From Chiridota heheva (lineage: Eukaryota; Echinodermata; Holothuroidea; Apodida; Chiridotidae), in assembly GCA_020152595.1 (NCBI GenBank), contig JAIGNY010000088.1, positions 1,442,501 through 1,506,500 of the forward strand: a DNA stretch of 64,000 nucleotides, written 5' to 3'. The notes under the pieces were generated by a model that saw only the letters and a list, made by a program, of their open reading frames with translations, did no database searches and had not been told where the DNA came from. The position numbers were made by a program, and so were the translations under genes. Below, piece after piece: positions 16,262 to 40,380 of this stretch (position 1 is its first letter; each line of letters begins with the position of its first letter).

Positions 16262-16617
16262 TAATCTAAAATAGCCATCATAGGCCCTCTCAAGCCAAAA
16301 TAGCCACCAAAGGCCCTCTCAAGCCAAAATTGCCACCAAAGCCCTCTCAAACCAAAATAGCCACCAGAGGCCCTCTCAAGCCAAAATAGCCACCATAGGC
16401 CCTCTCAAGCCAAAATAGCCACAGTAGACCCTCTCAAGCCAAAATAGCCACCGTAGGCCCTCTCAAGCCAAAAAACCGCCATAGGCCCTCTCAAGCCAAA
16501 GAGCCACAGTAGACCCTCTCAAGCCAAAATAGTCACCATAGGCCCTTTTAAGCCAAAATAGCCACCGTAGGCCCTCTCAAGCCAAAATAGCCACCGTAGG
16601 CCCTCTCAAGCCCTAGA
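16262..16617. repeat. 29-bp minisatellite, ~12 copies
   Basis: The unit is close to CCAAAATAGCCACCATAGGC plus CCTCTCAAG, with copies varying mainly at the CATAGG/CGTAGG/CAGTAGA position. Small indels break any long frame. There are no spacers between copies, so it is a simple tandem array. Confidence 0.95.
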
Positions 16618-16619
16618 GC

Positions 16620-18710: not shown

Positions 18711-18714
18711 CTCA

Positions 18715-18965
18715 AGGGTGTGCTGTAGCCCAGTGGTTAGGGCTGCAGTCTCGTACTAGGATTGAATCTCAGCTAGAGCGCTGTGCTGTGTCCTTGAGCA
18801 AGACTCTTTATCCCGTTAGCTCCAGTACACTCAGCTGTGAAATGAGTACCAGTTTTTGTTGGGGAGTTGGACTGGTGTCCCATTTAGGGGGAGTCAAATA
18901 CCCTATCAGCACCATGGAAACTGGGTATAACTATAAGCAAAGACCAGTCTCAATGGTGAAAATTT
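18715..18965 (+). mobile_element. tRNA-derived SINE, family B
   Basis: The head TGTAGCCCAGTGGTTAGGGC resembles a tRNA A-box, and ATTGAATCTC is a degenerate B-box. The body has phrases widespread in animal SINE tails: CCTTGAGCAAGACTCTTTAT, CTGTGAAATGAGTACCAG, GACTGGTGTCCCATTTAGGG and CACCATGGAAACTGGGTATA. It is diverged, and no target duplication was identified. Its body is unrelated to family A. Confidence 0.8.
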
Positions 18966-18969
18966 GTAT

Positions 18970-19780
18970 TTTCTTTTTGCATTTCATACTGAAACAAAAT
19001 CAAAACTCTGTTTCAGCCTAACACCACAACATCAATAATGTTGAAGCTCAAATTCCTTAAAAAAAGGTTCAAAATTCATTAAAGATTAGCAGAACACTTG
19101 ATGAATCATACTTAAAAATTGAAGTATAAGTTAATGATCATATTGAAACTACCAATTCTGACCTCTATTTAGCCCTGTAATCACGGAAAATCCTTTAAGT
19201 TGAAAGACCCCCAAGTTGCTATGAAATTTTGTGAAATATCAGTGTGCCAGCATATTGACAGCCACCTCACATTAGAAAAGAACTGAAAACAGGCCAACAA
19301 GGTGTTGCAATATACAACCATGCGACTATTAAAGCATCTTCGACCAACAAAATCCAATATCAAACGATGCCAAGCATTTCTTCAAAATTTTAAACAAGCC
19401 AAATTGCACTCACCCATTACATAAATTTCATTAAAAACATAATGTACAAAATAACTACTGAAATGATATAAAAACAAGTTTTAAAAGCTCCAGCTAATGC
19501 AAATAAAAAAGGTCTTCATTTACAGTATGAGCATAACCTTGCACATTTTCTATAATCCTTACTCCACCAAAAGACTTGCAAGCACATACCTATTAAAACT
19601 TAAACATATTCTAAATAGATACACCAAGTCGGAGAAATCCTAGTATAGTGGTAACTTGCTATCTAGAGCTTAATGAAGCATGTTTATTATGTGTTTCTTA
19701 GATTATTATTTATTATTATTCCTTTTATTCTTAGACTAAAATTTCACTTTCAACACAGAAATTTCACACAAATATTTTTT
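18970..19780. other. no gene recognised
   Basis: AT-rich intergenic or 3'-flanking sequence downstream of the sulfotransferase gene, which is transcribed toward it. Nothing coding is visible. Confidence 0.5.
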
Positions 19781-19832
19781 ACCCACACCGAGGGACCCAC
19801 ACCGAGGACCCACACCGAGGGACCCACACAAA
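19781..19832. repeat. 14-15-bp minisatellite, four copies
   Basis: ACCCACACCGAGGG repeated with single-base indels. Confidence 0.9.
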
Positions 19833-19892
19833 GGGGGAAAGTGGGAGATCATGCCAACACTGCTTGGAAGCAAAAATATTCTTTTTCAAAGC

Positions 19893-19898
19893 TTTATT
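19893..19898 (-). terminator. candidate poly(A) signal for the sulfotransferase
   Basis: The minus strand reads AATAAA about 280 bases past the sulfotransferase stop codon. It is the nearest exact hexamer I noticed downstream. A signal this short can occur by chance, so the assignment is tentative. Confidence 0.3.
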
Positions 19899-20180
19899 GA
19901 TGACTCTGGCTCTACATATCCAAGTTATTATATTCCAAAACCTATTTATGCTACATGCATGTTTCCCTCAGTTTCACCCCAGTCATTTCCATTTGTATGT
20001 GTGAATGATTTGTTCCTCAATCCTCACCATTACTAGCAACTGCGACATCTTAAAAGTTGAGGAGCTTTGCCCTCTTGTCCTTTTCCGCGCTGCAGGACTG
20101 TTTGAAGGACTGTTGAGTAAGAAACCTTATTTTTTTTAATACTGATCTATCCAACTCCAAAAAAAATATGTACACCAACA

Positions 20181-21601
20181 TCAAAAAGTGGCCCATAAAA
20201 ACTTTTGCCCGACCAATTCCATAAACTCCTTCATAAGTGGTCGATAATAAGCTTCAAGTTTCTCAGTAATTTCAGGACTCAATTTTGCCTTTGGGAGGAT
20301 ACCAGGCGTACTTTTAGCTGGACACGGCCTATCTGAGTTTGTCATGCAAGATCCACCTCGAGCTTTATCATAAAAGAACATACTCTTCTTGAAATATGAC
20401 TTTAGCCCTAAAAAGTGTTCTATCTCGATCATGACTGAATATGCGTCATTTGCAAGTCTGTCAGAATCTACAAAATAGAATTGATCCAAAGGATAGTACT
20501 TTAACCAATTTTTCATGTGATAAAGATAATTACTAGTTAATATCAATTCATTCGACCCATTAATATTACCCTTGTGGTCCAATATCATTCCCTCCAATCT
20601 CTTGCCTTCGGAATCTTCTGTCCTCCCGAATTTTGACTTTCCTTTCTCCCTCCACACTTTATGCAATTTCAGCTCCGACTCGTGTCGATAATCAGAAACT
20701 AGCCTTGATATAGGATTTTTCACGCATAATATAAACTTTACCGGTTGTTGCAAATCTCTTTTGATGTTCAGCGGTGTAGAGTTTGTCACAAAGTATCGCG
20801 GAGTTTTTTCAAAGACCAGTTGATCTTTTGAAGAAAACTGCATTCGAGATCTGTAATACTCAATTCCTTTATCGTAATTCCAATCAAAATAATGAACTTC
20901 ATTTCCGATGGAATGTGAAATATCTGGGTGTTGGTTGATAAAGAAACCAAATGCGTTTGTTCCACTCTTCTTTACACCAATATTGATTACCGATGGAAGT
21001 CTTTGATGATACCCCAACTTATCCATAAAATGTATAATAAACGCCCATTTTTTCCTGACAGGTTCTTTATTCAGTGGTTTACCGTACTTTGCTTCAAACT
21101 GTTTGAAACCTGCAAGAACAGCTTTCGAAGTTGTGGAGTTAACTTCATTAAAACTCTTTGAAACATTTTCTCTGCTCTTGGGTCAGCTTTTTCAACTAAA
21201 TAATCAAATTTTGGCTTATCAAATACCACACCGGAATCTCCACCATTTCCAATAGGATTCTTCTTACCATCTTGCCCAGTACCTGTTAAATTCTCAGCTG
21301 CATCACCATGGAATAAATGCATCTCAAATTTATAGTCCCCATCTTCCCTGCCCACGCTTTCCTCAAACACAGACAATTCTTTTAAATCCTGCTTTTCCTG
21401 CTTTTTAAGAAAATTTGTACTGTTTTGTTGTAAATCTGCCAATGGCCTTAAAACTTCTTTTTTACTTTTAGGAACGAATTCCGTGAGAAAAGACTTTCTC
21501 ATAAGAGGAGTCTTGAAGAATGAGCTAATGATGAAGATGGTTAATACTGCCAGGATTAGTACTGCTAGGAAAATTTTCTTCTTAGTTACATGACAAACCA
21601 T
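20181..21601 (-). CDS. heparan sulfate 3-O-sulfotransferase-like, Golgi type II (frame broken)
   Basis: Two overlapping minus-strand frames form one sulfotransferase. The N-terminal frame (21601-21071) starts MVCHVTKKKIFLAVLILAVL: a short cytosolic tail, one signal-anchor helix, then a charged stem, as in Golgi sulfotransferases. The catalytic frame is open from 21182 to the stop at 20181. Counting from the Met at 21026 it shows the PAPS 5'-phosphosulfate loop GVKKSGT (17-23), Glu43 in NEVHYFDWNYDKG at the catalytic-base position of HS3ST enzymes, EKTPRYF (73-79), the 3'-phosphate motif VKNPISRLVSDY (102-113) and a Cys227/Cys235 pair placed like the family disulfide. Family members transfer sulfate from PAPS to glucosamine O-3 of heparan sulfate; this substrate is inferred. 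Unusual points: VRDP reads VKNP, the KGRxHP loop is not recognisable, and the two frames join only through a -1 shift or indel between 21182 and 21074. It may be a sequence error, a small intron or a young pseudogene. Confidence 0.85.
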
Positions 21602-21805
21602 GTTGATATCTGATTGGCTATTCTTTTCAGATGGAGAAAAAAAACAAAAAAAACATTTATTACTGCTCCTTAGTTCTTCTTCTCAGATGACAGAATATCA
21701 TCGGCATTTTGTTAACAGCATTTGCAGACTCCTGAAAACAAAAGGAAAATATAAATTGATCAGATACTTACAACTTGAATTATTTCTACTTGATGATTTC
21801 TAAGG

Positions 21806-22201
21806 CTGAGTCAGGTACTTGATTGAATAATCGTGTACCTGGCACAAAAATATTGGGTACTGGTAACAGAAAACAAAATATAAAAATAAGATCTAAAAAA
21901 AAAAAAACTCTACAATATTTGCAGAACTGGTATATGTTACTGTATTAGGTTTACACTAAAATTGCTCTAATTTCACCGACTCAGACCAAAAATAAGTTCA
22001 AGAATGTAATATCACTCAAATTTTTTTGGTACGAGTTATTAGTGCAGTTACCTTGATTTTAGTCTTAGTCTAATAATATACCAGTTCCGCGAAATTATAG
22101 AGCTAATTTTAATTTTTTTTTTTTTTTTTTTTGGTACCCGGATTGCAAGCGGGTAACAGTAAAGAACTCTGCTCCAATTTTTTGCTACCTGACTCAGGTC
22201 T
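21806..22201. mobile_element. ~395-bp MITE-like element beside the sulfotransferase
   Basis: CTGAGTCAGGTA at 21806 is inverted as TACCTGACTCAG ending at 22197. Further inside, GTACC/GGTAC words and a 20-base poly-T run occur, with no open frame. It lies about 200 bp upstream of the sulfotransferase Met, in the likely 5'-flanking region. Superfamily is unknown; the inverted ends are short. Confidence 0.55.
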
Positions 22202-22204
22202 ATT

Positions 22205-22540
22205 CATACCACTTGTGTGTCAGTTCCATGATATTCTTTGATGGGATCGAGGCCGAAAACTAGTACCAATCTTGCTCACCAATATCCAAACAATATTTGA
22301 GTCAAAAATTTGGTTGGTCATTCACTTTTTGAACAGAATCGACTGTGCTTCAATACTACTGATGACCTTTTTGATGCTCTATCTCGCTCTTTCAAATACA
22401 TTGCAGCATTTAAAGTTTGGGTGCATGCCAGAAACTTTGAACTTTAAGAGACCTTTTTGAGACAATGGAACAGCTTTTGACATCCCTTTCAGTTCCATAT
22501 TCTTTCAAGAATCAGGCTTTACTATCAATTGAGTAAAAAG
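22205..22540. other. no gene recognised
   Basis: Unique-looking sequence between the MITE and the next repeat. Nothing coding is visible. Confidence 0.5.
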
Positions 22541-22544
22541 TTTA

Positions 22545-22693
22545 TAATTAACTGCTCTAATTTAGGCGATTGACAACTTTTTCAACCAATTACTGTATGA
22601 ACTTACTTGACAATAAAATCTGCATAACTAAGTGGGGCAAAAATCCTATATGGTACTGGTACAGTACAGCTAGCTAGCAGCATTCGCTCATAT
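22545..22693. repeat. left half (Y) of a split repeat; intact copy at 39.9-40.4 kb
   Basis: GCGATTGACAACTTTTTCAA, AAAATCTGCATAACTAAGTG and GGGGCAAAAATCCTA match, in order and on the opposite strand, about 40260-40365. In the intact copy, Y runs straight into the sequence that here begins at 34089. The junction on this side falls at about 22690, where similarity ends and ACCCTTACAG begins. Confidence 0.85.
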
Positions 22694-23430
22694 ACCCTTA
22701 CAGAAATCCCATATATGGCTTTACATCTGGCGTATATCAAGATACATAAAGCTTTATAAAGCCATATAAATCCAGATATGATTCTGTATATAAGTAAATT
22801 TTATCTATATATAAAGTTTGATAAAGTTATATACAGAACGAATATTTTATTTGGGAATAAAACTTTATATATTTGTATAAAGCCATATATATTATATACA
22901 GATTGTATATTTTTAATATGATTCATATGGCTGTATAAAGCATAATATACCTTATTAAATATATACATTTTATATATATACAGTATATGAATGTATAAAA
23001 CCAGATATAGTATATATAAGAGGGCATATATATATACAGTAGATATAAAGGTTATATATATACAGTTTATATGGATGTATACCACTTTATAAAGCCAGAT
23101 ACAATATATACAGAGGCTTATTTTATATGTAAATACATATTTATATGGCTATGTATGAAGCATGATATACCTTAGTAGATATATAAAAGTTTATAAAATA
23201 TATGGATGTATACAACTATATAAAGCCAGATATAGTATAAAAGAGTGCTTATTTTTTATGATGTATATATGGCTACATTTATTAAACCAGTGGAAAGTTT
23301 ATATAACATATAGGGATTTAAAATATATCGGCAACATAGTTTTTTATAAAGAAAAATAATTGATAGATATATAAAGTTTATAAAAAAAATTGTCCGTATA
23401 AAGCCAAGAAAATTTACAAGAATATTTTAT
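22694..23430. repeat. left subterminal AT-rich array
   Basis: ATATAAAGCCATATA, TATATGGCT and AGATATAGTATA words recur. A longer period of roughly 220 bp is visible: AAGCATAATATACCTTATTA near 22937 and AAGCATGATATACCTTAGTA near 23158, each followed by AACCAGATATAG or AGCCAGATATAG. It mirrors 33300-34088 on the opposite strand. Confidence 0.8.
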
Positions 23431-24490
23431 TTTTGAAAACAATTTATATAAAACATATTTTTGAAATTTCACTGAAAAACAAAACAAAAAACAGTTAAAA
23501 CAATACTAGTTTTTTCTTTGTTTTAACAGGGGTAACTGTTTTTAAGTGGTAATGAACACATCACATGTTAAAACTACTAAGGGGGTTGCTTCTAATCAAA
23601 AGGCATATAAACAATCTTATATATAATTTAATTAATATATCATTTTGTAAATTGGAGATCAATTGGGGGGGGGGAGATGTTTTTCAATTAGGATGGAAAT
23701 AGCTTTTAAATTTGCAGAAAATAATGTAGGTTATTGGAGTTGAAAAGTTATTTCTTGAGTCCAGCAACTTTTATCATAAAAATTATTTTTATATTCAATA
23801 ATATTTTAAAAATAGAAATTAATGAAAGGTATAAACTGTCCTAAATTGTTCAGCTAAGAACACATCATTAAATATTTGTCTCTTTGCAGAATTAAAAACT
23901 ATTTGTCCCCAAGTTTGATACTTTGCAGTTCAGTACCAATCAAAAGTAGCCTAAACACTTGAGTATTGTGACAGTGTAGTTTTATCATCTTGAAATTAAA
24001 ACTTGAACTTTGATTTCAATTTCTGTCGACCCCTTCTGGGATATGAAAGATAAAGTACCTGTGAGCTTTTAGTAGTAGTGCGCCTATTAGTATTGTATCA
24101 CCTCATAAGTATGAAAGCCCTGAACTCAAAACCAGACTGGCACTGGCAGACGTTAACAATCACTTTCCATTATTAAATCAGAGCCTGTATACATCTTCTA
24201 CAACCACCTGGTGAGTTTTATCAGGGAGTTGAAGGTTTCTTTCAAGATTACCCATTTTTGGCTCACTCATGACCAGTATATGTAAAGATATATCCACTGA
24301 CTTTAAAATTCCATTGATTTAAATGCAAACTATGTTTGCCTACCATGTTATTGCATTATGACTTAACGTTAGAGCCTAGTGTTATGTAAATTTTTACTAC
24401 AGACAGTAATCATTCAGATTGGGCAAACTTTCCAGAAAATATGTGCACATGGGAGTTAGTTGGTAGGTTTACCAAGATTTATAAGATCGC
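23431..24490. other. no gene recognised
   Basis: AT-rich unique-looking interior of the 11.4-kb segment, without coding-like frames. Confidence 0.5.
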
Positions 24491-24494
24491 AACA

Positions 24495-24625
24495 GACCTC
24501 CACTAGGTCAAGTGGCCCACAGCCGTTTTAACCAGTCGTGGAGTATTGGTTGGAGACCAACCGGGAATCCAGCCTGGGACGCTAAATTAGAAAGATGAAG
24601 CTTTACTACACTGCCACACTGACAT
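24495..24625 (-). mobile_element. degenerate tRNA-derived SINE
   Basis: On the minus strand CAGTGTGGCAGTGTAGTAAA (A-box like) is followed after about 35 bases by GGCTGGATTCCCGG (B-box like) and a body containing AACCAATACTCCACGACTGG. The translation QCGSVVKLHLSN across it is a SINE artefact. No copy elsewhere in the window was recognised. Confidence 0.6.
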
Positions 24626-24629
24626 ATGG

Positions 24630-24790
24630 GTTTTGGGAGTGGGGTCAATGATTTGGTTTGGGATTCGGGAGTGGGAGGGTCCATGATTTGGGATTCACAG
24701 CGGCATGATTTGGTATTCACAGGAGCATGATTTGTGATTGGGGGGTGGTTGGTTAGTCTGTGATTTGGGATTCGGGAAGGAGGGGGGGAA
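24630..24790. repeat. ~30-bp minisatellite, GATTTGGGATTC type
   Basis: Units such as CATGATTTGGGATTCACAGC and GATTTGGTTTGGGATTCGGG recur five or six times. The same core, inverted, makes the arrays at 53200-53450 and 54590-54910. The sequence CATATTTTCTGGAACTGC follows at 25317 here and occurs again at 53537. Confidence 0.7.
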
Positions 24791-25499
24791 GGTGTTTTGG
24801 GCAACAGCTGCTAAGTAGACCTAGGCCTGCTCCTCATAGCCTGCTTCATGCTCCACAGACTTTGGGAATTAATTGATGTTGCAGAATATGTTTCTATTGT
24901 CAAGCAGACATTCTCTGTTTTGCATCCGTGGCCCCACAGACTTTTTGAATGAAATTTACCCAAAACCCTCTGGTTCAGCTCTGTGACTCCACAGACTTTT
25001 GGGCTTAAATTATTCTTGTGATGAGAATTTGACATAATCCCACACATGCACCCTAGAGCGGTTTCATGCTTTTGATGGGAATTTTGTCATAATCTCATAG
25101 ATGATAGATACACCCCAAAGCGGTTACGCTGGCCACACGTTTGTCCTTAGTTCAATTTGAGGAATATATTGGTAGTGTTTCACTTGTCTTGTAATTTTGA
25201 GTGCGGATTATTCTGCAATTAAGCTGGAGGGGAAGTTCATCATGATGATTGGGAGTCAGGGGGTTGTCGGCCATATCTGGAAGAGATGTCACCAATCCCC
25301 CTTCCCCCCAGTACTCATATTTTCTGGAACTGCCCATTCCTAACTTGTTCGTCAATAACTTGTATTCTATCAGGTACTTCATTTAACATTGCATTGTATT
25401 TTAAAGTGAATTATGAAAACTTGATATTTAGGGAATTGCAGGTCCATATCAATTAAGTCTACATGATTATCTCAACGGTCAGCAGTCTCAAAACATTTT

Positions 25500-25690
25500 T
25501 CTTTTCTTTTCAGGGAATGGATTTTTAAGGAATTTATCATGCAGTTTTTAAGAGTTTCATGGATGCAAGGGTTTTAAATAAGAATCATAATTCAAACAAA
25601 GTTTGAGGTTTTTCCTCTGGAGCTTAACACCAATTTATGACCCTTATGGTTGCCATTTCAAGTGTGGCCTATATGAATTCAACCACTGTG
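25500..25690 (+). repeat. one arm of the foldback repeat seen complete at 35.4-35.7 kb
   Basis: GGAATGGATTTTTAAGGAAT, GAGGTTTTTCCTCTGGAG and GGTTGCCATTTCAAGTGTGG follow the order found at 35558-35695. Here the last motif occurs once, with no 36-bp array after it. Confidence 0.85.
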
Positions 25691-25694
25691 AGTT

Positions 25695-26450
25695 GGCAAA
25701 CTCTATTGGGGATTCATAATCAAATTTGATGCTGAGGTCTGGCCTAAATCCAATTGGGCCTCCAGAGACTTCAACTGAAAATTGATTACGGATTAATTAC
25801 CAATCACTGTGGATTATTATTATTTTTTTCCATTTTAATGTGAAATCGAGCATCTGTTAATGTGATCAAGTGAAATTTTGAGTTACCCTTGAACTACTAA
25901 GTTCTAAGTCAATCACCTTTTTGTTCAGTCAATGACTTTTTTGTTTATTTATCTGTTCACTGAGATTGAGTAGCCATAGCAGGTATTTTTAGACATTGGG
26001 CATGAGTCACGTTTCCTGTTGATGTTTCACTCACATGTTGCTGGGCATTAATTAATCTACTGCTTCAACTTCTTGTTTATTTTGGTATGTTTTCTTGTAA
26101 ATCTCCAAGATTCTGTTTCCCTTGCAATTTATTGTTCATTGCAATTGCAGTATTCTTCATAGAAGAAGCTTTTATTAGGGTAATAATTAGTGTTGCTCAG
26201 TAACATTGTATTTCTGCCTGGTGATATGCCCAAATGTGCACTTTTGGTTCTTGGAGGTGATTGTACTTATATTCACTCTCTTGCCTTGACCGATAGTTGA
26301 AGACAGACAGTCAGATTTTAGCTCTGTGTTTTAAATTTGTTAAAATGGACCGGTTTTGAAGTTATTTTCTTGTTGGGAATAATATTGGTGAGTTCATTGA
26401 TTGTTTTCATACATGAATATAATTTAGAGAGATGAATTTGTATGTTTGTA
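25695..26450. other. no gene recognised
   Basis: AT-rich unique-looking sequence. Several pyrimidine-rich stretches end in AG, but no exon-like frame follows them. Confidence 0.5.
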
Positions 26451-26454
26451 ACTT

Positions 26455-27060
26455 GATATGAGCTAGATCATTTATCGTATCAGGTCTGTGATCAAGTAAT
26501 TTGTTTTAGCATAGCTCTCTCATATGTTAGTTCCGCGAACTGCATAATCACGATCGTTCTTTCAGATTAATTATCAATTCTGGCATCTGTAACAATAGAA
26601 TGGATCACTGTTAATGTCAATTATTAGGTTTATCTTATCTCTAGTTGTAATTGGAAATGAATATTCATCTTGGTAACGCAATATTCTATCGCATAACGAT
26701 CATAAGAGGTGCATTGTTTACTATTCTGTTTTGTTAAGATTTGACTTAAAACACATAAGGGCGTGATTCTTATTTATATAATTGTGACATCAGGCGTTCT
26801 GAAGATGATATAGTGCATTGTTTACTATTCTGTTTTGTTAAGATTTGACTTAAAACACATGGGAGTTGATTTTCAGGTCTGTGAGTAATTTTTTTAGCAT
26901 AGCTCTCTCATATGTTGTGTTCTTTCAGTGCATCTGTAACAATAGAAATGATCACTGGTCAATTATTAGGTTGATTCTTATTTATATAATCTTTGTGACA
27001 CTAACAAATTCTGTTTTGTTATTTGAAGAGTAAGACGTGATTCTATATAAAATGATAGAC
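26455..27060. repeat. tandemly duplicated block, period ~400 bp, partly shortened
   Basis: TTTAGCATAGCTCTCTCATA, TGTTCTTTCAGTGCATCTGT-like and CAATTATTAGGTT occur near 26504-26630 and again near 26895-26975. The piece TGCATTGTTTACTATTCTGT through TGACTTAAAACACAT occurs at 26710 and 26814. The later copies have many small deletions. Confidence 0.8.
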
Positions 27061-27064
27061 GCTC

Positions 27065-28070
27065 TGAAAGATATATTAATATGCTATGATATGATGAAAT
27101 AAAGTGATTACTTTGTATACAATCTAAGGTATTCTAATAGATTTGACTGATTAGGTCATTCTATTGTTGGATATTGGTTCACTATGATTACATTGAAGCG
27201 TGTGAGTACTAGGTGTGTGGGTAGAGTTTTACTTCTGCTCCTAATTTCCATGAATTGTTAGGATTGATTAGTCTAGGAGAGATTTTAGTAAGATTTTGAT
27301 TACCATGAAACAATATCTTTCCTTAGGCAAAATGGTCTATCAATCATTCACAGTTAACGCACACATCACCTCAGGCATATGATAAACATTTATTTTAATC
27401 ACCAGTTCAAAACAAATTTCTCCCACTAAGACACCTAACATGGATGAGTGATTTCAATCACAAAAGTGCCCTGATTACTCAACACTGGCTTTTTGTAATC
27501 TTTATACACACAAATGACCTTGGGCTACTTGGCTGTGGTGTGCATGGGAATGACAGATAAACAATCATTGTTTGGAGTGGAAACACAATACACTGAACAG
27601 GAAGTCGGGTTGATAATTGTCATACCCAAGTTTTCAGGATTAACTTAGGTGTCAGGTACAGGTAGGCTTAAAGAGAAACTTTTGGCATGACACTGGGCTA
27701 GAAATTCTGTGTGTGGTTTATGCATAATGCATTTATTCTGTATTATGTTATGCAAGTTTTTATTTCTTGTAATATCTTCAATGATATACTTGTGGTGATA
27801 TTATTGCAAACATTTTGTTAGAAACAATTTATATTTAATTTGAGATATCACAGAAAGAATCCTGAGTGAGCATTATATCATTTTTAACATGATTTACAGC
27901 CTGTGTTTTTGGTATTTCCAGATCATGATGATGACTTTTAAATCAACTTTTATGTTTAGGTTGAAAATTAAATGAATTGGGTCTTACTTTATACATTAAT
28001 AAGTGTATGGCTTTCTTTTTAAAATGTTTATCTTGGACACATTTCTAGATATTTGTTGTATTCATTTTTG
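27065..28070. other. no gene recognised
   Basis: AT-rich sequence without coding-like frames, upstream of the candidate exon at 28074. Confidence 0.5.
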
Positions 28071-28073
28071 TAG

Positions 28074-28137
28074 GTACCATGTTCCATGCCTATGCTGAGA
28101 CTTTCTTGGATATATGTATTTATGCTGTTAATGGACG
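28074..28137 (+). other. candidate signal-peptide exon
   Basis: A T-rich tract ending in TTTTTGTAG precedes a 64-base stretch that ends at a strong donor GTGAGT (28138-28143). One frame reads MPMLRLSWIYVFMLLMDG: one Arg, then a hydrophobic core of signal-peptide size, leaving one base of the next codon at the donor (phase 1, common for signal-peptide exons of secreted or receptor proteins). No following exon was recognised in the window, and this stretch lies in the 11.4-kb inserted segment. It may be chance. Confidence 0.3.
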
Positions 28138-28489
28138 GTGAGTCATATTTCTTAGCAGGATCATTTTCATGAGTCGAATAGCAAACTGTATATCAACCTA
28201 CGGTACATGATAGTTAGTATTGATGTTATTATTCATCAAGGTGTAGACTTGGAGTGAAATTTGTCAAAGTATTTTAATCATCAATTGTCGAAACAATGCC
28301 TTTGTTTTAACTTAATCAACTTGATAATTACTTTTTCTGATATGTAGAATATTTCATGGATTATAACTGTATATATTTAAATATTTCAGTTCTAGTCTGT
28401 GTGGAAATCTGTCTTGCTGGATGGATTTTGTTTTTCTGATGTACAGATTATTTTTGTATTATTCATGATAATTATGCAGATTTGGTTAA

Positions 28490-28589
28490 CCCTTACTCTA
28501 CCAGCACTTTTTTGAAAATGCGCTCCGGAGGCGGGGCCAAAGATGGGGCACCCAAAACGGCGATAATATCGCCGCGTGGTAGAGTAAGC
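28490..28589. mobile_element. 100-bp piggyBac-type MITE, copy 1
   Basis: TTAA lies at 28486-28489 and 28590-28593. The left end is CCCTTACTCTACCAGC and the right end GTGGTAGAGTAAGC, inverted apart from the eroded last bases. The interior has GGCGATAATATCGCC, a perfect dyad, and AT-poor sequence GGAGGCGGGGCC. TTAA plus CCCT-starting ends identify the piggyBac superfamily; the same end sequence bounds the larger element at 57043-59634. Confidence 0.85.
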
Positions 28590-28733
28590 TTAATCAAGGC
28601 ATGATTATTGAAGGGTCCTCTGTCTTCCAGGCAGCAGAGTCGGGCCCGTTCCGCTTCCGAGACCCGCTGGGCCGCCCACCGGGACCATGCTGCCTATATT
28701 TTCCAGTTGGCGCATTTGTTGCAGATTGATTAA

Positions 28734-28834
28734 CCCTTACTCTACTAGCACTTTTTTTTAAATGCGCTTTGGAGGCGGGGCCAAAAATGGGGCATCCAAA
28801 ACGGCATTAATATCGCCGCGTGGTAGAGCAAGGG
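28734..28834. mobile_element. 101-bp piggyBac-type MITE, copy 2
   Basis: TTAA lies at 28730-28733 and 28835-28838. Ends are CCCTTACTCTACTAGC and its inverse GTGGTAGAGCAAGGG. It is nearly identical to copy 1, in the same orientation, 140 bp downstream. GCAGATT precedes the left TTAA region of both, and a GC-rich spacer of about 136 bp separates them. Confidence 0.85.
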
Positions 28835-28839
28835 TTAAT

Positions 28840-30445
28840 GAGGGTTTTTCTGGCTTTTGGATCAATTCAAATTTTGTCTATTATTCATGCGGGAAATCAT
28901 ATTATTTGTTTGTAATGGAGAAAAGAGAATCTTTCTCTTTGATTTGTTGGTTTAAGTTATCGGAAATATGCTATTTTTGTATATGTAAACAACACTTTCA
29001 ATAAGATGTATTTCACTTTGTTTATAATTTGTTATTGCTATGTTTCAGGAGCTGTTTTGCTTGATTTAATAAATTGATGGACAGGCGATTATTTGGTCTT
29101 GGGTTTATTTACCCCGAGGCTTACTACAGTACCTCAAAGAGTGTATCTTCTCATTAATTTTTGCAAAAAAAAAGTTTTCAGCTACGAATGAACAGGCCTT
29201 GCAAAATGGTAATTGACTATTGTTTATTAAAATTGATTAAATATTCAAAGATATACTATTAAAATACAGTGATTCTCTTACTATATTAAAATCTTGTTCA
29301 ATCATATTTCAGAAAGAAAAAAAAGCAACTAGAAGCTTCAACGCCAACAAACCTCAAGAAAATAATGAGCGAAAGATTAAAGGAAAAAAAAAGTAGTTCC
29401 TCTGTTTACTGCTCTTGTAACTACACAACATTGTGAGTGGTGTAGTAATTTATCAAAAAAAAATTGGGAGTATTGTAAGGAGGAGCTTAACTCATCAAAG
29501 GAGGAAGCAGCTTGGATCCAGAAAAGACACACAGACACACACAAAAGGAGACGTTTAAGTTCAAAGTGTTAAACAAAAGACTTCAGGATCTTAGGATCAG
29601 CTCCTGTGCAAGCTTGAAAAACATTGTTCGTTAAACTGCCTCTTCATATCATCTTCATGTTATTCCTTGGAGCTTTATGGACAAAGAATGCTTACAAGTA
29701 GGGCTGTGCATTTTCGTTTATAAGCCAAAATGTTTAAACAGCCGAATTTCCATTCGTTTAAATAAACCACCAACCTTATTAAAACAAAAATCTGACCAAC
29801 TGGTTCTATCCCTACAATAACCACTGCATAACCATCGCGATGCCCTCCCAAAAATAAGCCAGGAATGCAACAAAACTTGAGAAGGGGTCTTATAGTAAGT
29901 CTTCAAATTACCCGTAAGTCTTAAAAAATAATGATCCGTGGTTGGAACCCGCTTTAATAGATGCAGAAATAACACACCAGCAAATAAATTTGCTGCAACT
30001 TGCAAGCATTTTAAAATGTTTTCAGCACTTATGACTAAAAGATTCCAAAGTATGCCATCCTGAACCAGCTATACCGTAGAAAAAATTATTCTAACCCATC
30101 CCTATTTCCAACTGTACTATATTTGATACAATCCTCTTGGAAATGGCGGAGATCTTTGCAAACCCACGCTAAAATCTTGGCAACTTTAAAACATTTTTGT
30201 TCCTTTATTTTGCAATCTTTTTCTTTTTGCACAATCTTTTTGACTCATCAACATAAATTTTGCATTTATTTGTATTTAAAAATAATACTAATCAAAGCTT
30301 TTTTGTCTGTGAATTTCTGGGTCAGTTTTTCAGCTTGTAAAACAGATGTTAACCTAGTGCAGATTTATGCATAATCAGGCCTATATAGCCTCCACATCAA
30401 GCTCTGAAAATTCAGTGAATCAAAGCCAAATATAGCCCCATTAAA
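28840..30445. other. no gene recognised
   Basis: AT-rich sequence with isolated short frames and no recognisable domain. Confidence 0.5.
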
Positions 30446-30450
30446 GCCGT

Positions 30451-30693
30451 AAGAGAGAGAGAGAGTTGAACACACAATTACAATGCTCTGAAAATTCGGT
30501 TATGATAGTACAAATGCCAAATATAGCGAGAACACAGGTATGATGCGGCCAGACATAACTAACAACCAAGTCAATGTCCACGCCTTTGATAACCAGTTGT
30601 GGTGCACTGGCGTGTCTACCCACCCCAGGATTGAACCCGGGGCCTTGTGGTCTGTAGACAGGTATAATAACCGCTACACCACAGTAGGTAGAT
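30451..30693 (-). mobile_element. tRNA-derived SINE, family A, (CT)n tail
   Basis: Reverse-strand copy of the 13928-14206 SINE: CTACCTACTGTGGTGTAGCG, GGGTTCAATCC and GGGTAGACACGCCAGTG match in order, and the body follows to TGTAATTGTGTGTTCAA. The tail here is (CT)n rather than (CGT)n. Confidence 0.9.
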
Positions 30694-30699
30694 AATTAG

Positions 30700-31555
30700 T
30701 ACGAAATTCAACTCCTGCCTTAAAAGGGATTAGATGTTAAGTTTGAATTATAAAATCCATTGAATGAGAGTTGTGAGTGTGTTTGAATGTTATTGATTTT
30801 CAATGGCAAGTGTGAATCACGAACGTTTAAACTCTTGGGAGGATTAGACTAAGCGTTTGATTGAAGGTTCGTTCGTTAAAACATTTACATTTAAACGTTT
30901 ACATGGGTAATCATCACAGCCATACTTAAAAGGATACATAACAAAATTTTCCTGCATTGGTTTTGCTGTAAATGTAATTTAAGTGAATGCTTATTGCTAC
31001 CTAAATGTTGGCATTTTTTCAACTTGATAATTGATATATTTCAGCTACTTAAAAGCATCACTTTAATACCTAACTTTGCTTCAAGAAATGAATAGCTTTG
31101 AAGTTTTTAAAAATATGGTGGCCGAAAAATTAGGGTGTTGTTTTTTACATTTTTGCGTACTTCATAGGAACATGTGCCGCATGGCTTTCATCGAATGATA
31201 CTGGGACGAAAATAAAAGCGGTAAAAAGTCGGGGCAAAATGAATAACAATGGGAATCAAAAGAAGAGTTTCTGGCATATATTTCCTTTTGGGGGGAGAAG
31301 GGGGAGGGGGGGCACTTTGACATGACAGTTGAATATCTATTGTATTTTGAATATCCATTGTACATACACAATATTTTGTAAATCTTTCTAGCATTCCGAT
31401 TAAAAAATATAATAATTAAAAAAACTTTTTCGTTGACAATTTGTGAATAGAAGTGGACTAAATTTGAACAGTTCTTCATGGGAGGGAGAAGGGGGTCTAG
31501 TAGGTCACCATGGATTGTCACTGGAGCCCGGCACTCAAACTTGTCTAGCTAGAAC
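30700..31555. other. no gene recognised
   Basis: AT-rich sequence. A G-rich block near 31290-31312 and another near 31480 occur, with no coding-like frame. Confidence 0.5.
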
Positions 31556-31559
31556 CCTG

Positions 31560-33060
31560 CTATGCATATCAATGAAATTCAATATTTTGGTACCATGAAC
31601 ATGTACACACAGGCTAACAACATAGTTATACCAAATATGACATAAAACAAACAATGCAATTGTTAAAATATAAGCATTTGAAGATTTTTACATTAAGCCT
31701 CGCCCCTACTCATTAATATACCTGATCTCACCACAAAAAACACTAAGGCTATCTGTGTACCAAATATAAACTAAATCTCATGTATCGTTCTTAAGATATT
31801 GTGTTTACCAACTCTTTTCAACAAAATCATGTTTTGCCCCACCCACTATACATATTAACAAAATTCAACATTTTGATACACATTAGCTTACAACATAATT
31901 GTACCAAATTGGAAACAAATCAGTCAGGCATGCGGTTGTTAAAATATGAACATTTCAAAATTTTACCATTAAGCTCTGCCTACTCATTAATATGCAAGAT
32001 ATCTCCACCAAAAACAATAGGGCACATCTGCGGACCATGGGCTATCTGTGTACCACATATGAACTGAATCCCATGTATCGTTCTTGAGATACTGTGTTTA
32101 TAAGTTCTTTTCAACAAAATCATGTTAAGCCCTGCCCACTCTGCATATTAGAGAAATTCAACATTTTGGTACCATGAACATGTACACACTAGCTAACATC
32201 ATACATATACCACATATGAAACAAAACAGATTTTACATTAACCATGGCTATTTGTGTACTGTACCACATATGAACTGAATCTCATGTATTGTCTTGAGAT
32301 ACAGTACTGTGTTTACAAGCTCTTTTCAACAAAATCATGTTTAAGCCTTTTGCCCACTATGCATATTAATAAAAATCAACATTTTGGTACCATAGCACTG
32401 TGGACCATGTGCTATCTGTGTACCACATATGAGCTGAATCCAGTTTACCGTTCTTTAGAAACCTGTGTTTACAAGCTCTTTTCAGCAAAATCAGATTAAG
32501 CACTGCCCACTATGCAAATTAATGAAATTTAAGAATTTTACATAATAAACATGTACACACTGGCTAACATCACAATTACACTACATATGAAAGAAAACAG
32601 GCATGCGGTTGTTAAAATATGAACATTTCCAGATTTTTACATTAAGCTTAGCCTACTTATTAATATGCATGACATAACCATCAAAAACAATTGGGCGCAT
32701 CTATGGACCATGGGCTATCTGTGTACCCCATAATATGACATGAATCTGGAGTATCATTCTTGAGATATCATGTTTACAGCTCGGCGTCACACACACATAC
32801 ATACACACATACAGTACATACATACACCCATACATACACCCATACATACACCCATACATACACCCATACATACACCCATACATACACCCATACATACACC
32901 CATACATACACCCATACATACACCCATACATACACCCATACATACACGCATACATACACACATACATACACACATACATACACACATACATACACACACA
33001 CAGTACATACACACATACGCCATCACGACCACATAGGTTCCTGATGCTATCGCTTCGGAA
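31560..33060 (+). mobile_element. hairpin-ended repeat family, copy 1, internally tandem
   Basis: Blocks of 220-370 bp repeat in order: ATTCAACATTTTGGTACCAT, AACATGTACACAC, ATGCGGTTGTTAAAATATGA, CTCATTAATATGCA, CACATCTGCGGACCATGGGC, TATCTGTGTACCACATATGA and GCTCTTTTCAACAAAATCAT. The run ends with a CATACATACACC microsatellite (32785-33015) and then GATGCTATCGCTTCGGAACC at 33039-33058. Copies at 34238-34882 and 41690-43870 end in the same hairpin-plus-GGAACC signature; there, empty paralogs show that this is the element border. No protein frame is recognised. Helitron-like mobility is inference. Confidence 0.65.
32785..33015. repeat. 12-bp minisatellite/microsatellite (CATACATACACC)n
   Basis: About ten identical 12-bp units followed by CATACATACACA variants. 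The period is a multiple of three, so it keeps frames open on both strands without being coding. Confidence 0.97.
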
Positions 33061-33064
33061 CCAA

Positions 33065-33295
33065 AAATGAAAAAATTCTAAACATTTCTGGCAAAGGATA
33101 AGAAAATATTTCCATGCCCAAGAGTGCATATCTTTTAATTATCTTTTAATTAAGTTTGATGTACTACAGTATGTAAAAACGTTTGTATTAACCTTGTCTT
33201 GTAGTAAAGTAAGGAGATGTGTAGTTATAAAAGTTTTTATAAGGTTTTAGGTCGTAGGTATCAATTTAAGGTTGAAAGAAATGTTCTTGCCTAGG
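33065..33295. other. no gene recognised
   Basis: Short spacer between the hairpin-ended repeat and the AT-rich array. Nothing coding is visible. Confidence 0.5.
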
Positions 33296-33299
33296 TGTG

Positions 33300-34088
33300 C
33301 TCTATTTCTCAGTTAAGTTTGCCATATAAAGATAATTAGCCATATACTGCATGTTAATCAAATTTTATATACCCATATAATAAACATCTATAAATCAAAT
33401 TGCTTACAGCCATAGGAAGATTTAATCATTAATTTTATATAGCCATATAAACCTATATATATATGGCCATATAAATCTGATCTATAAATCAAATTGTATA
33501 TTGCAGCAATATATAAAGATTTATATACTGTTATATAGAAAAAGGCTCATTTTATTAGGCATATTATAGAATTAGCATACATGTTAATCAAATTCTAAAC
33601 CCATATAAAGCCATATCTGTCATGCAGCTGTATGATTTATATAAATTTAGAAAAAGTCTTCTTTATAAATTGGCTAAATATGTTTCAAATCTTATACACC
33701 CATATAAAGCCACATCTGTATTAAAATCAAATTGCATGCAGCCATATAAAGATTTATATGGATTATAGAAAAGGGCTTTATTTTATAAAGCCATATAAAG
33801 AATTGGCCACATATGTGAATCAAATTTGATATACCCATATAAAGTTTTGTGTACAAAATTTCAGCACAACTTGTATACAGATTGATATGGCCCATATAAA
33901 AGTTTAAATATCAAGTATAACTTGATATATGTATCTGGTCATATCAAATTTTATATTTCTATCTGGCCATATAAAACTTTATTTTGGAATTCATATAAAT
34001 CGCATATATGGCCCATTCATGGAATTCATATCTGGGCCATATAAATTGTTATTTATATCTGGCCCATGTGTGAGATTTCTGTAAGGGT
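33300..34088. repeat. right subterminal AT-rich array
   Basis: ACCCATATAAAGCCATATCT, ATTTATATGG, GGCCATATAAA and AATCAAATT words recur with an approximate 125-135-bp period (for example near 33590, 33690 and 33830). The array runs to the terminus GATTTCTGTAAGGGT at 34074-34088. Confidence 0.8.
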
Positions 34089-35065
34089 CACTTAATGTAA
34101 TATACTACACAAAACAAATTTTTGCACACAAAATTTTTGACGACAAAATGGTGAACAAAAATTCATGGGCCTGCTACAGGCTTTGTAAATCCGATTTCCG
34201 TTACCAAGAATGGTAATTTGTTTATTCCTTTTGATAACCAGAACAAAAAGGTTTTGTAGCTCTAATGCTTTTTTATGTTTTATATGCTGATTGATTTGCA
34301 AGTTTTGTATTAACTGTCATGTTATTGCACATCGTTATAATATTTGTTCCATGATATTTATTCATATCAAGTCATCACCAAGCAAATCAATAAAATAAAA
34401 TCTGTTGACAACAATAGCATGTGCACAATAATTAACAACACTATCATAGCAAGTATGATGCAAAATCTGATAATCTGCATATCTTCAATATTGATGATCA
34501 TGGGTATATATCTGACCATTGCTTCATACACTGTGGTGCTGAATTACCATCCACATCCTTGGAAGTAAAATCTATCTCTTTCCAAAAGTACAAGAAAATC
34601 AACATATCTTACTTTCAAGAAGACCTTATGGTATCTAATTTCATTCAGGAACCATCTGACAACCTGAAGGTGCTAGTTTCACAATATGAATCATGTCTTT
34701 GTTCCGTTTTGCATGCACCCCTTCACCATGTGCTATCTGTGTACCACATATGACATGAATCCACTGTATCGTTCTTGAGATATTTCATTTACGAGCTGGC
34801 CATCATTCACACACACACACATACACACACACACATAAGCCATTATGACTGCAGAGGTTTCTGATGCTATCGCATCCGTACCAAAATCTCTTAAGATCCA
34901 GAGAAGTGCCATAAATGGATCAAAGCTTGCAGCAGGCCACATGAACATCTAAATGTCAATGTGTTGGTCACACATGATTGCAGGTTTGAGGTTTGTTTGC
35001 CCCATGCACTGTTACCAGTGTTGCTATGGTGGGTGTGGCCTATTTTTATACTTAGTGAGATTAAT
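34089..35065 (+). repeat. right half (X) of the split repeat, itself interrupted
   Basis: From 34089, CACTTAATGTAATATACTAC, ACAAAACAAATTTTTG, CAGGCTTTGTAAATCCGATT and TTTATTCCTTTTGATAA match the reverse complement of about 40240-40065. After a gap, ATAAATGGATCAAAGCTTGC, AGGCCACATGAACATCTAAA, TGTCAATGTGTTGGTCA and TTGCTATGGTGGGTGTGGCC match 40035-39900 reversed. The 34238-34882 stretch has no counterpart. Confidence 0.88.
34238..34882 (+). mobile_element. hairpin-ended repeat family, copy 2, inserted in X
   Basis: It lies between TTCCTTTTGATAA and AAAATCTCTTAAGATCC, which are adjacent in the uninterrupted copy near 40065. The end carries family motifs CATGTGCTATCTGTGTACC, ATGACATGAATCCACTGTAT, a CA-rich microsatellite and GATGCTATCGCATCCGTACC at 34867-34886. 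No terminal inverted repeat and no clear target duplication were seen. Confidence 0.7.
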
Positions 35066-35397
35066 AATGGTTTTGTCTACAATAAGTGCCATTTTCAGAC
35101 TATTTCTTACAAAAGCTTAAAAGCCTTTCAAAGTTTAATAGGGCCTTCAATCCACCATCAAAGATCACATGATTGGCATTAATTTACTCATAAATTATTC
35201 CATCACTGCCTCACACCTTTTGAAATTTCACTGTAATAATTCATTGGCATAGTCACCAAGGTTGGAAGAAAGTGCAGAAATTCCCACAGGAGACTTGATA
35301 ATAAAAAGTTCATTAATAAGGTAATAAAAAAGGTGTAACTTGATCTTTGGGTGGTTTTGTGAGACTCAATGAGTCATCATTGTACAGTGTACTGTAT

Positions 35398-35700
35398 AAA
35401 GCCACACTTGAAATGGCATAGGGGTACTTAGTGTTTTGTATAGGAAAAACCTCAAATTTGTTTTTGTTTAATTTAAAAACTCTTGCATCCCTGGACATAA
35501 ACTCTTTACAAATTTTCCACACTTTTGCACCTGGACACTGTTTTTGAATACTTTTTGCAGGAATGGATTTTTAAGGAATTTATCTTACACTTTTTAAAAG
35601 TTTCAGTTTTGAATAAGAATAAAAAATGAACAAAAAATGAGGTTTTTCCTATAGAGTCTAAAACAAAGTACCCCTATGGTTGCCATTTCAAGTGTGGCCT
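35398..35700. mobile_element. foldback element, ~300 bp
   Basis: GCCACACTTGAAATGGCATA at 35401 and GGGGTACTT are inverted at the right as AAGTACCCCTATGG and GCCATTTCAAGTGTGGCC. Inside, GGAAAAACCTC and AAACTC are likewise inverted as GAGGTTTTTCC and AGTTT. The whole element can fold on itself. A one-arm copy lies at 25500-25690. Confidence 0.75.
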
Positions 35701-36095
35701 ACATTGAAAAGATGATTGCCATTTTAAGTGTGGCCTACATTGAAAAGATGATCGCCATTTTAAGTGTGGCCTACATTGAAAAGATGATCGCCATTTCAAG
35801 TGTGGCCTACATTGAAAAGATGATTGCCATTTCAAGTGTGGCCTATATTGAAAAGATGATTGTCATTATAAGTGTGGCCAACATTGAAAAGATGAATGCC
35901 ATTTCAAGTGTGGCCTACATTGAAAAGATGAATGCCATTTTTCTTTGAAAAGATGATTGCCATTGTACATTGAAAAGATAATTGCCATTTTAAGTGTGGC
36001 CTACATTGAAAAGATGATTGCCATTTCAAGTGTGGCCTACATTGAAAAGATGATTGCCATTTCAAGTGTGGCCTACATTGAAAAGATTGCCATTT
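35680..36095. repeat. 36-bp minisatellite, ~11 copies
   Basis: The unit GATTGCCATTTCAAGTGTGG plus CCTACATTGAAAAGAT is repeated head to tail, with one shortened unit near 35945-35975. The first unit coincides with the right arm of the foldback element, and the equivalent arm at 25660 has only one unit. The 36-bp period keeps a frame open (VAYIEKM repeats) on each strand; this is not a gene. Confidence 0.95.
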
Positions 36096-36189
36096 CAAAA
36101 GAGGCCAATATTGTTATCTAATGATACTCTTAACTAACTGCAATGCTTTGAATCCTTTTGGCACATATCTTTGAAGTTTATTTGGTGTA

Positions 36190-36570
36190 CCAGATGGATT
36201 AAATTGTTGGAGGTGAAATGAGGTTAAAGAGATAGTGTGGAGCATATGAAGTAGGTACAGAAGAAGATTAGATATAGTTATAGTAGTTGGGGTGATGTAG
36301 TAAGACAATGGATTTGCCAGCAATGACAGAATAAAGCTGGTGGAAGGAGTAGAAGATAATGAAGTCATCAACATAGAGGGCACATTTGATGCAGGACCTA
36401 GGTTTTCAGCTTTGTTTTTATACAGAGATTAAGAGGGTTGGGGAGAGGATGCTGCCTTGTGTAATGCCCTCTTCTTGGAGGTAAGGGTTGGAGAGGATGT
36501 GGCCAATACAGAGCTGAAAATGTCTGAGGAAGAGGAAGTTCTGAATGAATGAAGTAAAACAGCTGATTTA
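36190..36570 (-). pseudogene. LINE reverse transcriptase fragment, Jockey-like
   Basis: The minus strand reads FIQNFLFLRHFQLCIGHILS, then EEGITQGSILSPTLL near 36470-36425 and, after a stop and frame change, CALYVDDFIIF, with YVDD at 36375-36364. The order NxLxxRxFQ, GxxQGSxLSP, YVDD is that of the RT palm in Jockey-type non-LTR elements. Ends are not defined. It is broken and cannot be translated through. Confidence 0.7.
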
Positions 36571-36599
36571 AGTTTTGGGATCTTATATTCAGGTGTTAT

Positions 36600-38695
36600 A
36601 TGTTACTTTGTATAAATAGGCATACCTTTCCATTTTGTTTACTACTATGATACGCATTTTTATTTAATTCATTAAACGATAAATGATCATCTTTATTGAT
36701 TGTTTATTGGTAACCAATAACAGCGGAAAAGTCTGATAGGATCAAGCCCATTGTTCATGTTGTATCTTGTGGTGCCCTACACATGTTATTGCAAACACTG
36801 AATGGTTGAAAGTTTTGAGGCTGAAATTTTGTGTAAACAAAACAATAATCTTTGCAACAGTAAATGTTAATAATAGTCATTTATCAATTAACCGATAAAC
36901 GATCGCATTCCTATTTACTAAATCCTTTGTTTTTTAACCATGTACCACAGTTGCTTAAAGTTCCGCAAATAAATATTACAAATCTTAGTGCGTTTTATTC
37001 TTACTCCCAATTAATGTCTAGGAAAAGAAAACATTCTCATCATTTTCAAAGACATAAAATACGTAAATAAATATTAAGACTTACCGCAAATTTGAGCTGC
37101 CTTCCTGTCATGCATCAGACGTTTTGTGTATGTCTTAGTGGCAGAGAATAGGTGATGCTAAAACTAGATGAAATCTTCTGGAATGTACAACGTAGTTGTT
37201 GGAATACATGTAAATATGAGTCCATCCTGTACAGAGATAAACATACAATGACAAGTTTTGCATGTGATTTATTGAGAATCTGAAGATGAAATTTCATTAA
37301 AAACTTTATGAGAAGAATCCCATCGTTTAGATTGGCACATCACATGGAAGACAAAACAAACAGTGAAACTCAGTAAGTTTCTGTTATTTCCAGATGCTCC
37401 TTGATCAAATCAGAATCTTCAAAATCCACTTCCTTCTTTGTGGCAACATGTATAAATCTTAAGATATAAGACAATGCAATGCTCTTCCATGAATACTGTT
37501 AGTTTTGACCACAGCTGAAGATTCATATTCAGAACACAGCTAATTAATGTGTGCCTTTATACTTGGCATGATTTGTACTAAACAATTCAGTTTTATAATT
37601 AAGACTTAACTGTTTACATTTTTTTTACAATCTTTAAGCATATCATTACCATTCTCTATGACATATTTTTTTCCTATTGCCACAAACAATTATCATCTAA
37701 ATGGGTAAATATTGTGTTACAAATTTTGAACATATCAAGATCTGACCAGGTTTTGATGAATTTTGAAGTGTTTCATGCATATGAAAGAACCAAAATTGTA
37801 TCAAAATTTTAAACTGCCATCACCATGGTAACCACATGAATGCCATATACTGACCTGGAAAATTATTTTGAAGAAACAAAGAAGGGACTGGTGTAAGTTA
37901 ATATGACATACTATTAAAATGTTACATCTGAAACTGAAACCTGATAAGATTTAAACTACTCATCAATTACAATAATGTGTTTTGATGGGTAGGACACTGC
38001 CATCCTCAACAAGAGGTTTATTGAATCAACCCCCTTCCCCCAAACTCGTTTTACCATAAAGAAAGTTGATCACTAATATTATCCAGGTTCTATTACTAAT
38101 AAGAAATTGAATATTATTTATTGAATCAAATCCAAACTCTTGCTTGATTAAACACCGATATAATCATCTGAAAACACCAATCATTCCGACAAAACCTTCA
38201 CCGTACTACCACATACAACATCATCTGAAATACTATAAGTCTTTAGTTTGAGTATACACCTTGTATCAAAACAAAGAACTCAAAGATTATTTTACAAAAC
38301 ATTGGACATCCGTGATCACTCAGCATTATCACGCATAATTCTAAGTTCCCCTGATTGCCTACAAATGAGCAAAACTCTCTTATCTGAATCATTTTTACTT
38401 CAGAGGACTAATAATGAGCCAAATATTACCCTCTCGATACGGTTGATGAATCCGATATCAGCATACTTACAGTTCTTATGCATACTTACAGTTCTTATGG
38501 ATGAGTAAGAGGCCAGCAAAACTCTGGTTATTCATCACCCTAAAGACCTAACCTATTTGATGACAACACTCTATAATATGACAATATGTAGAATAAAAGA
38601 TACAACTTTTGAATGTATCAGCTACTGAGGAGACTTGCCAAACATCGGTTTAGTCCAAACGAGTCTAGCAAGGCATTTCACATGTTTTACCATTA
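36600..38695. other. no gene recognised
   Basis: AT-rich unique-looking DNA. TTCTGTTATTTCCAG near 37378-37393 resembles a splice acceptor, but the sequence after it has no clear coding frame. Confidence 0.45.
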
Positions 38696-38697
38696 AT

Positions 38698-39680: not shown

Positions 39681-39894
39681 AGAATTACGTCGTATTTGAG
39701 ATTAATTTATATCTCATTGTTCTTGAATTCATTACTACTGGATATCATTCCAGCTTATCTTTATCTTTTAAATTTTATGCCTTCAGTTTGGAATTTTCAC
39801 CTATGCAATTTCTTAATACCTTGTTGATTGATATAACATTTATTCATCACTATTATCCATATTTTCAACCATTTTTCTGAATTTACTTCACTAA

Positions 39895-40380
39895 GTACGT
39901 AAATAGGCCACACCCACCATAGCAACGTGGTTAACTAGGTGGGGCAATTAAATCTCAAATCTGCAATAATATGCATGACCAACGCATTGACATTTAGATG
40001 TTCATGTGGCCTGCCGCAAGTTTTGATCCATTTATGTTACTTTCCTAGATCTTTAGAGTTTTTAGCAAAAGGAATAAATGAGATTCTGATTGCTAAAGGT
40101 TGTGAGAAACGAAAATCGGATCTACAAAGCCCATAGTGAGCCTGTAGGTGCAATCTTTGTTCACTATCTTGTCGTTTCTCAGTCTGTGTACAGAAATTTG
40201 TGTTGTGTACAGAAATTTGTTTTGTGCAGTATATCGCATTGACTGAATCAGCGCGCACTGCTATCTATATCTAATGTAGGATTTTTGCCCCACTTGGTTA
40301 CGCAGATTTTGTTGCTAGGCAAATTCCTGCAGTGATTAGTTGAAAAAAGTTGTCAATCGTCTAACTAAGAGAGGGTAATT
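39895..40380 (-). repeat. intact X-Y repeat (empty-site copy)
   Basis: On the minus strand, TTAGTTAGACGATTGACAAC, GTGGGGCAAAAATCCTACAT, then GCGCTGATTCAGTCAATGCG, ATATACTGCACAAAAC and onward to GTTGCTATGGTGGGTGTGGC run without interruption. It is the unbroken version of 22545-22693 joined to 34089-35065. It lacks both the 11.4-kb segment and the 34238-34882 insert. Confidence 0.88.

Follow-up and report, generated by a model that had tools for sequence, protein, structure and literature searches.

How did an 11.4-kb segment with inverted ends come to lie between two neighbouring parts of a repeat in the genome of the holothuroid Chiridota heheva? We examined a window of 64,000 nucleotides from contig JAIGNY010000088.1, in which the segment occupies positions 22694-34088 (all positions are those of the window). 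Our analyses lead us to regard the segment as a probable insertion of DNA-transposon type into an older repeat of about 500 bp, subsequently lengthened by later insertions.

The older sequence is an interspersed repeat. One copy of it, copy A, comprises both flanks of the segment together with a third block at 34883-35058; copy B is uninterrupted and thus represents the empty site. An earlier note on this DNA had claimed that the two flanks are adjacent within one continuous minus-strand repeat at 39.9-40.4 kb, and that a single insertion had separated them. The adjacency is borne out, as the alignment of the two flanks, once joined, to 40380-39888 runs across their junction. The note had no mention of the third block, in which copy A resumes beyond a second insertion. 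When all three pieces of copy A were joined (with 34089-34245 as the middle piece), about 570 bases of copy B were aligned under permissive gapped scoring. The last 26 bases of the left flank and the first 28 of the right flank scored 52 against copy B, compared with a maximum of 38 for 1000 substitute right flanks taken from 35200-39000. Because the joined flanks fit the uninterrupted copy better than every one of the 1000 substitutes, we infer that the older repeat received a segment with terminal inverted repeats (TIRs) at its ends. With a TIR at both junctions and this difference in score, the single insertion is well supported. No remnant of a TIR or of the AT-rich arms described below was found at the junction in copy B.

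The ends of the segment, previously described as perfectly inverted over 15 nt, are indeed exact reverse complements (ACCCTTACAGAAATC at 22694-22708 versus 34074-34088), and the match extends imperfectly to 25 nt (88%). TIRs at both insertion junctions, as found here, are a feature of class II TIR transposons. What cannot be put down to chance is the position of the pair at both junctions of the split repeat: among 3000 random pairs of zones (101 + 81 nt), none had an inverted match of at least 15 nt and two had one of at least 12, the longest being 12. At up to 3 mismatches, ACCCTTACAGAAATC occurs three times in the window, at the two ends and at 49532, with 2.3 occurrences expected by chance. 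We rejected 49532 as a third copy of the end given this chance-level count, and by eye there is no array behind it. The shorter core CCCTTACAGAAAT likewise revealed no extra end (4 matches at up to 2 mismatches versus 2.8 expected). The CArG-box motif is CCWWWWWWGG. One such word in the left end, at 22709, prompted a count of these words, which was dropped after it returned 11 in the window and 1 in the arms.

Four observations weigh against an insertion of this kind. An exact 15-nt inverted match is by itself not rare in this AT-rich window: with overlapping words counted individually there are 7787 such pairs, and 116 exceed an entropy threshold of 1.7 bits. Allowing ACCCTTACAGAAATC up to 3 mismatches reveals no further copy of the element within the 64 kb. 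The 42 bases adjoining the left end (22652-22693) align to copy B only loosely and with gaps; as the middle piece of copy A, when aligned locally under stricter conditions, matches only from 34106 onwards, the junction can be placed within a few bases at best. Finally, no identical target-site duplication (TSD) was found for lengths of 2-10 at offsets of -2 to +2, despite the intact first 15 nt of the TIR. The abundance of inverted pairs and the loose left junction would fit an account with no insertion at all, in which two host-repeat fragments are independent of each other and the inverted 15-mer is fortuitous, or a deletion gave rise to copy B. We consider this very unlikely, since the three blocks of copy A are collinear, lie on one strand and lack few bases, and since neither the TIR nor the arms have left a remnant in copy B at the junction. 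We therefore retain the insertion into copy A as the preferred explanation.

The target site bears on the kind of element involved. The nearest candidates for a TSD agree at 5 of 7 (TCATATA/TCACTTA) and 2 of 3 positions, and the best longer comparisons at 3 of 8, 5 of 9 and 4 of 10. Relative to copy B, ends set at ACCC and GGGT leave 1 extra base, and ends set at CCC and GGG leave 3. This comparison favours either no TSD or one of about 1-3 bp, rather than the classes with 8-10 bp, unless an insertion or deletion hides one. With CCC as its start, the element has TA as its left neighbour and TC as its right; Tc1/mariner elements duplicate a TA target site. The tetranucleotides flanking the element are TATA on the left and TCAC on the right, the latter sharing three of its four bases with TCAG in the empty copy. 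These flanks matter for a possible relationship to piggyBac, like that of the TTAA-flanked CCCTYACTCT elements at 28.5-28.8 and 57.0-59.9 kb. According to the portion of a Teratorn review cited here, piggyBac TIRs are 12-19 bp long, begin with CCYT and have TTAA as target (PMC10175614). The TIR read as 5'-CCCTTACAGAAATC conforms to this start and length, and CCCTTAC is common to it and to the local piggyBac-type family. TTAA, however, is present at neither end, and on this ground we rejected membership of piggyBac. We also rejected a decayed TTAA on the right, where TCAC looks like host sequence because of its agreement with the empty copy. A piggyBac-type element is thus highly improbable.

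The segment has no recognizable coding capacity. No Pfam family was detected within it in six frames, with stops read as X and E values up to 1, in agreement with the earlier claim that no transposase is recognizable inside. The same method recovered Sulfotransfer_1 at 2.5e-20 from 20000-22693 on the minus strand; as this control gene is intact, the method could still overlook a transposase in an advanced state of decay. The transposase gene that marks an autonomous class II TIR copy was accordingly not found, whereas the intact control was. We predict that the element is non-autonomous. Sequence with another copy in the window makes up 22.4% of the interior, or 16.8% when only copies more than 3 kb away are counted. 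The corresponding values are 11.4% and 7.8% for the left flank and 25.6% and 12.7% for the right flank; the interior is about as repeat-rich as the latter. Other repeats, comprising the 16.8% portion and two miniature inverted-repeat transposable elements (MITEs), amount to about 2.0 kb of the interior.

Behind each end lies an AT-rich arm, of about 787 bp on the left (78% AT) and about 769 bp on the right (73% AT), compared with 64% AT for the window. The earlier note had described 700-800 bp arrays in mirror orientation. The arms themselves were confirmed, but tests of whole arms gave no net mirror. Shared 10-mers gave products of 80 on the same strand and 58 inverted, where 200 dinucleotide shuffles gave about 13 (sd about 6). 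Strand-asymmetry products for k of 6 to 10 were 3, -4, 5, 16 and 28, none below the shuffles; they are near zero at k of 6, 7 and 8 and lean to the same strand at 9 and 10 (values reached by 26/300 and 2/300 shuffles, respectively). The best local alignments of arm against arm scored 88.8 on the same strand and 92.1 inverted, with maxima of about 70 in 150 shuffles. Single words point in both directions. CCAGATA is mirrored, with four occurrences on the plus strand of the left arm and four on the minus strand of the right (a score reached by 1/300 shuffles). TATAAAGCC is direct, with five plus-strand occurrences on the left, three on the right and none on the minus strand of the window (0/300 shuffles). 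Each was the top-scoring of all words of its length, and the shuffles were scored likewise. For 9-mers, the total score was 41 for mirror-only words (23.0 in shuffles, sd 6.9) and 73 for direct-only words (23.4, sd 7.2). The arms therefore share words both directly and in mirror image, and the direct sharing is the stronger; asymmetry products, alignments and word scores led us to reject arms that are mirror images as a whole, despite the mirrored CCAGATA. With low-complexity filtering off, a plain AT repeat at 48.0-48.24 kb can also be aligned to the left arm and, weakly, to the right. A putative hairpin at 23470-23560 was set aside (DNA fold z -1.85; 8/200 shuffles fold as well).

The size of the element when it landed has two versions, both contained in the insertion proposed above. 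In one, the element was compact, about 1.6 kb long with an interior array rich in AT, and was later split by a 9.8-kb interior built of several insertions. This seems a reasonable possibility, if short of probable. It would account for the direct sharing of TATAAAGCC and of 9-mers, and for an 18-nt exact same-strand match between 22753 and 33782 (E 0.003), as arms sharing same-strand words could be two halves of one shorter array. The several other repeats inside, and a second strike on copy A of the host repeat, are also consistent with it. Set against it are the mirrored CCAGATA and mirror-only 9-mers, the similar whole-arm alignment scores in both orientations and the 77.6% of the interior that has no other copy in the window. 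Moreover, no direct or inverted match of at least 10 nt joins the inner edges (23400-23900 versus 33040-33400), although a short duplication would escape this comparison. In the other version, most of the 11.4 kb moved as a unit, as a giant non-autonomous element of an undescribed family, which we regard as possible but doubtful. This agrees with the arms adjoining both ends, with an interior of which about 7.6 of 9.8 kb lacks another copy in the window and which contains no Pfam family, and with the presence of outer TIRs only. The earlier note had allowed that each array might prove to be a separate element with its own second end; within the window, ACCCTTACAGAAATC had no further match at the arm inner edges at up to 3 mismatches, and no such second end was seen. 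The giant version accords poorly with the roughly 2.0 kb of other repeats, the single copy in the window and the lack of a TSD. At landing the element may thus have measured as little as about 1.6 kb, the length of its two arms, or as much as about 9.4 kb, or any length between.

We propose that the TIR-bounded segment (15 nt exact, 25 nt imperfect) would have entered copy A most likely by cut-and-paste transposition, with transposase supplied from elsewhere. The AT-rich arms would be its subterminal regions and may carry repeated sites for transposase or host factors. Part of the present 11.4 kb probably derives from later insertions of other repeats, as suggested by their presence inside; we infer the order of events within the segment on similar grounds. 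We think it unlikely, though worth considering, that the locus represents a family of non-autonomous elements of large size, about 8-11 kb, with a 15-nt TIR of CCYT type, unusually long AT-rich subterminal arrays behind either end and a TSD that is small or lacking, mobilized in trans by a transposase. If many copies were to share the ends, arms and interior, this would be a very large element moved in trans, with arms that show possible places of transposase binding. If the interior consists of later insertions, the segment would be an old TIR element of ordinary kind, set in a genome rich in repeats. The split host repeat and its empty copy provide a clean local case of nested insertion under either size (Table 1).

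Table 1. Positions of the segment, its parts, the host repeat and nested repeats in the window
Feature	Position	Strand	Remarks
Left part of host copy A	22546..22693	+	22546-22651 81% to 40380-40274 (minus strand); 22652-22693 loose
Left TIR	22694..22718	+	First 15 nt exact; 22/25 over 25 nt
Left AT-rich subterminal arm	22694..23480	+	Degenerate repeats, TATAAAGCC and CCAGATA words; inner edge by eye
Interior	23481..33319		0 Pfam families in six frames; 22.4% also present elsewhere in the window
Two direct copies of a piggyBac-type MITE, about 100-110 bp	28486..28838		TTAA-flanked, TTAA CCCTTACTCTACYAG...; first ends GTAAGCTTAA, second AGGGTTAA
Interspersed repeat	30529..30698		Also 13926-14100; in part 45710-45783
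Array, microsatellite and hairpin-like end of an interspersed family	31513..33066		Other copies 41.9-43.86 kb and 34.7-34.88 kb
Right AT-rich subterminal arm	33320..34088	+	CCATATAAA words; inner edge by eye
Right TIR	34064..34088	-	Inverted match to left end
Middle part of host copy A	34089..34238	+	Alignment to copy B
Second, separate insertion in host copy A	34239..34882		Open stretch 34490-34729, array unit, microsatellite and hairpin-like end; position of left edge approximate
Final part of host copy A	34883..35058	+	83% to 40063-39888 (minus strand)
Copy B of host repeat, uninterrupted (empty site)	39888..40380	-	Alignment

Several other repeats surround or lie within these features. The tail of the second insertion in copy A, with its array unit, microsatellite and hairpin-like end, recurs at 31.5-33.07 kb and 41.9-43.86 kb. 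The members of this interspersed family (31513-33066, 34239-34882 and 41900-43855) have array units of varying spacing, a microsatellite and a hairpin-like end, which in one copy reads GGTTCCTGATGCTATCGCTTCGGAACC; the plan of the family may resemble the Helentron/DINE type. The open stretch at 34490-34729 (80 aa) has no Pfam or PDB match and presumably resembles the endonuclease-reverse transcriptase linker of a non-long-terminal-repeat retrotransposon. The repeat at 30529-30698 has what we assume to be a likeness to a short interspersed nuclear element or a tRNA B-box, and ARAGORN gave no tRNA there; in the window as a whole, neither RNA families (0) nor tRNAs (0) were detected. Ends of piggyBac type, TTAA CCCTYACTCTNCC or CTCTACY, are present in the tandem short MITEs at 28486-28838, at 57038 and 59638, which are 2.6 kb apart, and in a third instance at 59929-59936. 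No transposase family was identified in six frames of 57038-59940, where the only two matches both fell below cut-offs (E 0.13 and 0.2). The host repeat at 39888-40380 contains an imperfect 23-nt inverted pair (19/23; TAACCAAGTGGGGCAA...), a weak match with E 0.14. Judging from its sequence, the host repeat may itself be a MITE.

To the left of the segment, two minus-strand open reading frames (ORFs) lie within 20181-21601 (21071-21601, then 20181-21026). The latter matches animal heparan sulfate 3-O-sulfotransferases (PDB phmmer 2.3e-41), a match that points to an animal genome. The former has its start codon at 21601, and the insertion is situated upstream of this at a distance of about 1.1 kb. 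Base skews change sign around the left end of the segment, with an excess of G and T on the plus strand inside (24000-29000) and, outside (15000-22000), an excess of C, along with an excess of A over most of 15-21 kb. This change could reflect divergent transcription or the boundary of the insertion.

Searches of broader collections gave little. A collection of viral contigs had no match to patterns representing the TIR, the array unit or the host repeat. The host-repeat pattern had two matches in a genome contig collection, which we took as chance given resemblance over 40 and 22 bases only. The array family had no match among phages, and the sulfotransferase ORF, compared as DNA, had none among plasmids. 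In a library of open-licence papers CCCTTACAGAAAT was not found, and among the matches listed for subterminal arrays or binding sites, giant elements and piggyBac MITEs, none corresponded to the element.

Comparison with known systems yields likenesses, not assignments of superfamily. CACTA/EnSpm elements have a short TIR, subterminal repeat regions and a small TSD, with ends that begin with CACTA or CACTG. The segment resembles them in its short TIR and subterminal repeat regions; unlike them, it has neither the CACTA/CACTG ends nor an identical TSD of 2-3 bp. Tetris, a foldback element of Drosophila virilis, has TIRs of up to 1735 bp and TSDs of 8-10 bp in the account excerpted here (PMC4079207). 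In that account, it is TIR-bounded, lacks apparent protein-coding capacity, and has tandem repeats in its arms and a variable middle, all as in the segment. The segment differs in its TIR of 15-25 nt, in arms that as a whole are no inverted copies of each other and in showing no 8-10 bp TSD, so that neither the long inverted arms nor the TSD of a Tetris-type foldback element is found. The maize Ds elements (Ac/Ds family, hAT) have an 11-bp TIR and 8-bp TSDs in the text drawn on here (PMC3260210); the segment differs in having no 8-bp TSD and no known autonomous partner. Within the limits of the same text, the likeness to Ds2 includes a short TIR, common terminal and subterminal sequence around unrelated internal sequence, dependence on transposase from elsewhere, and lengths that include extraneous insertions (PMC3260210).

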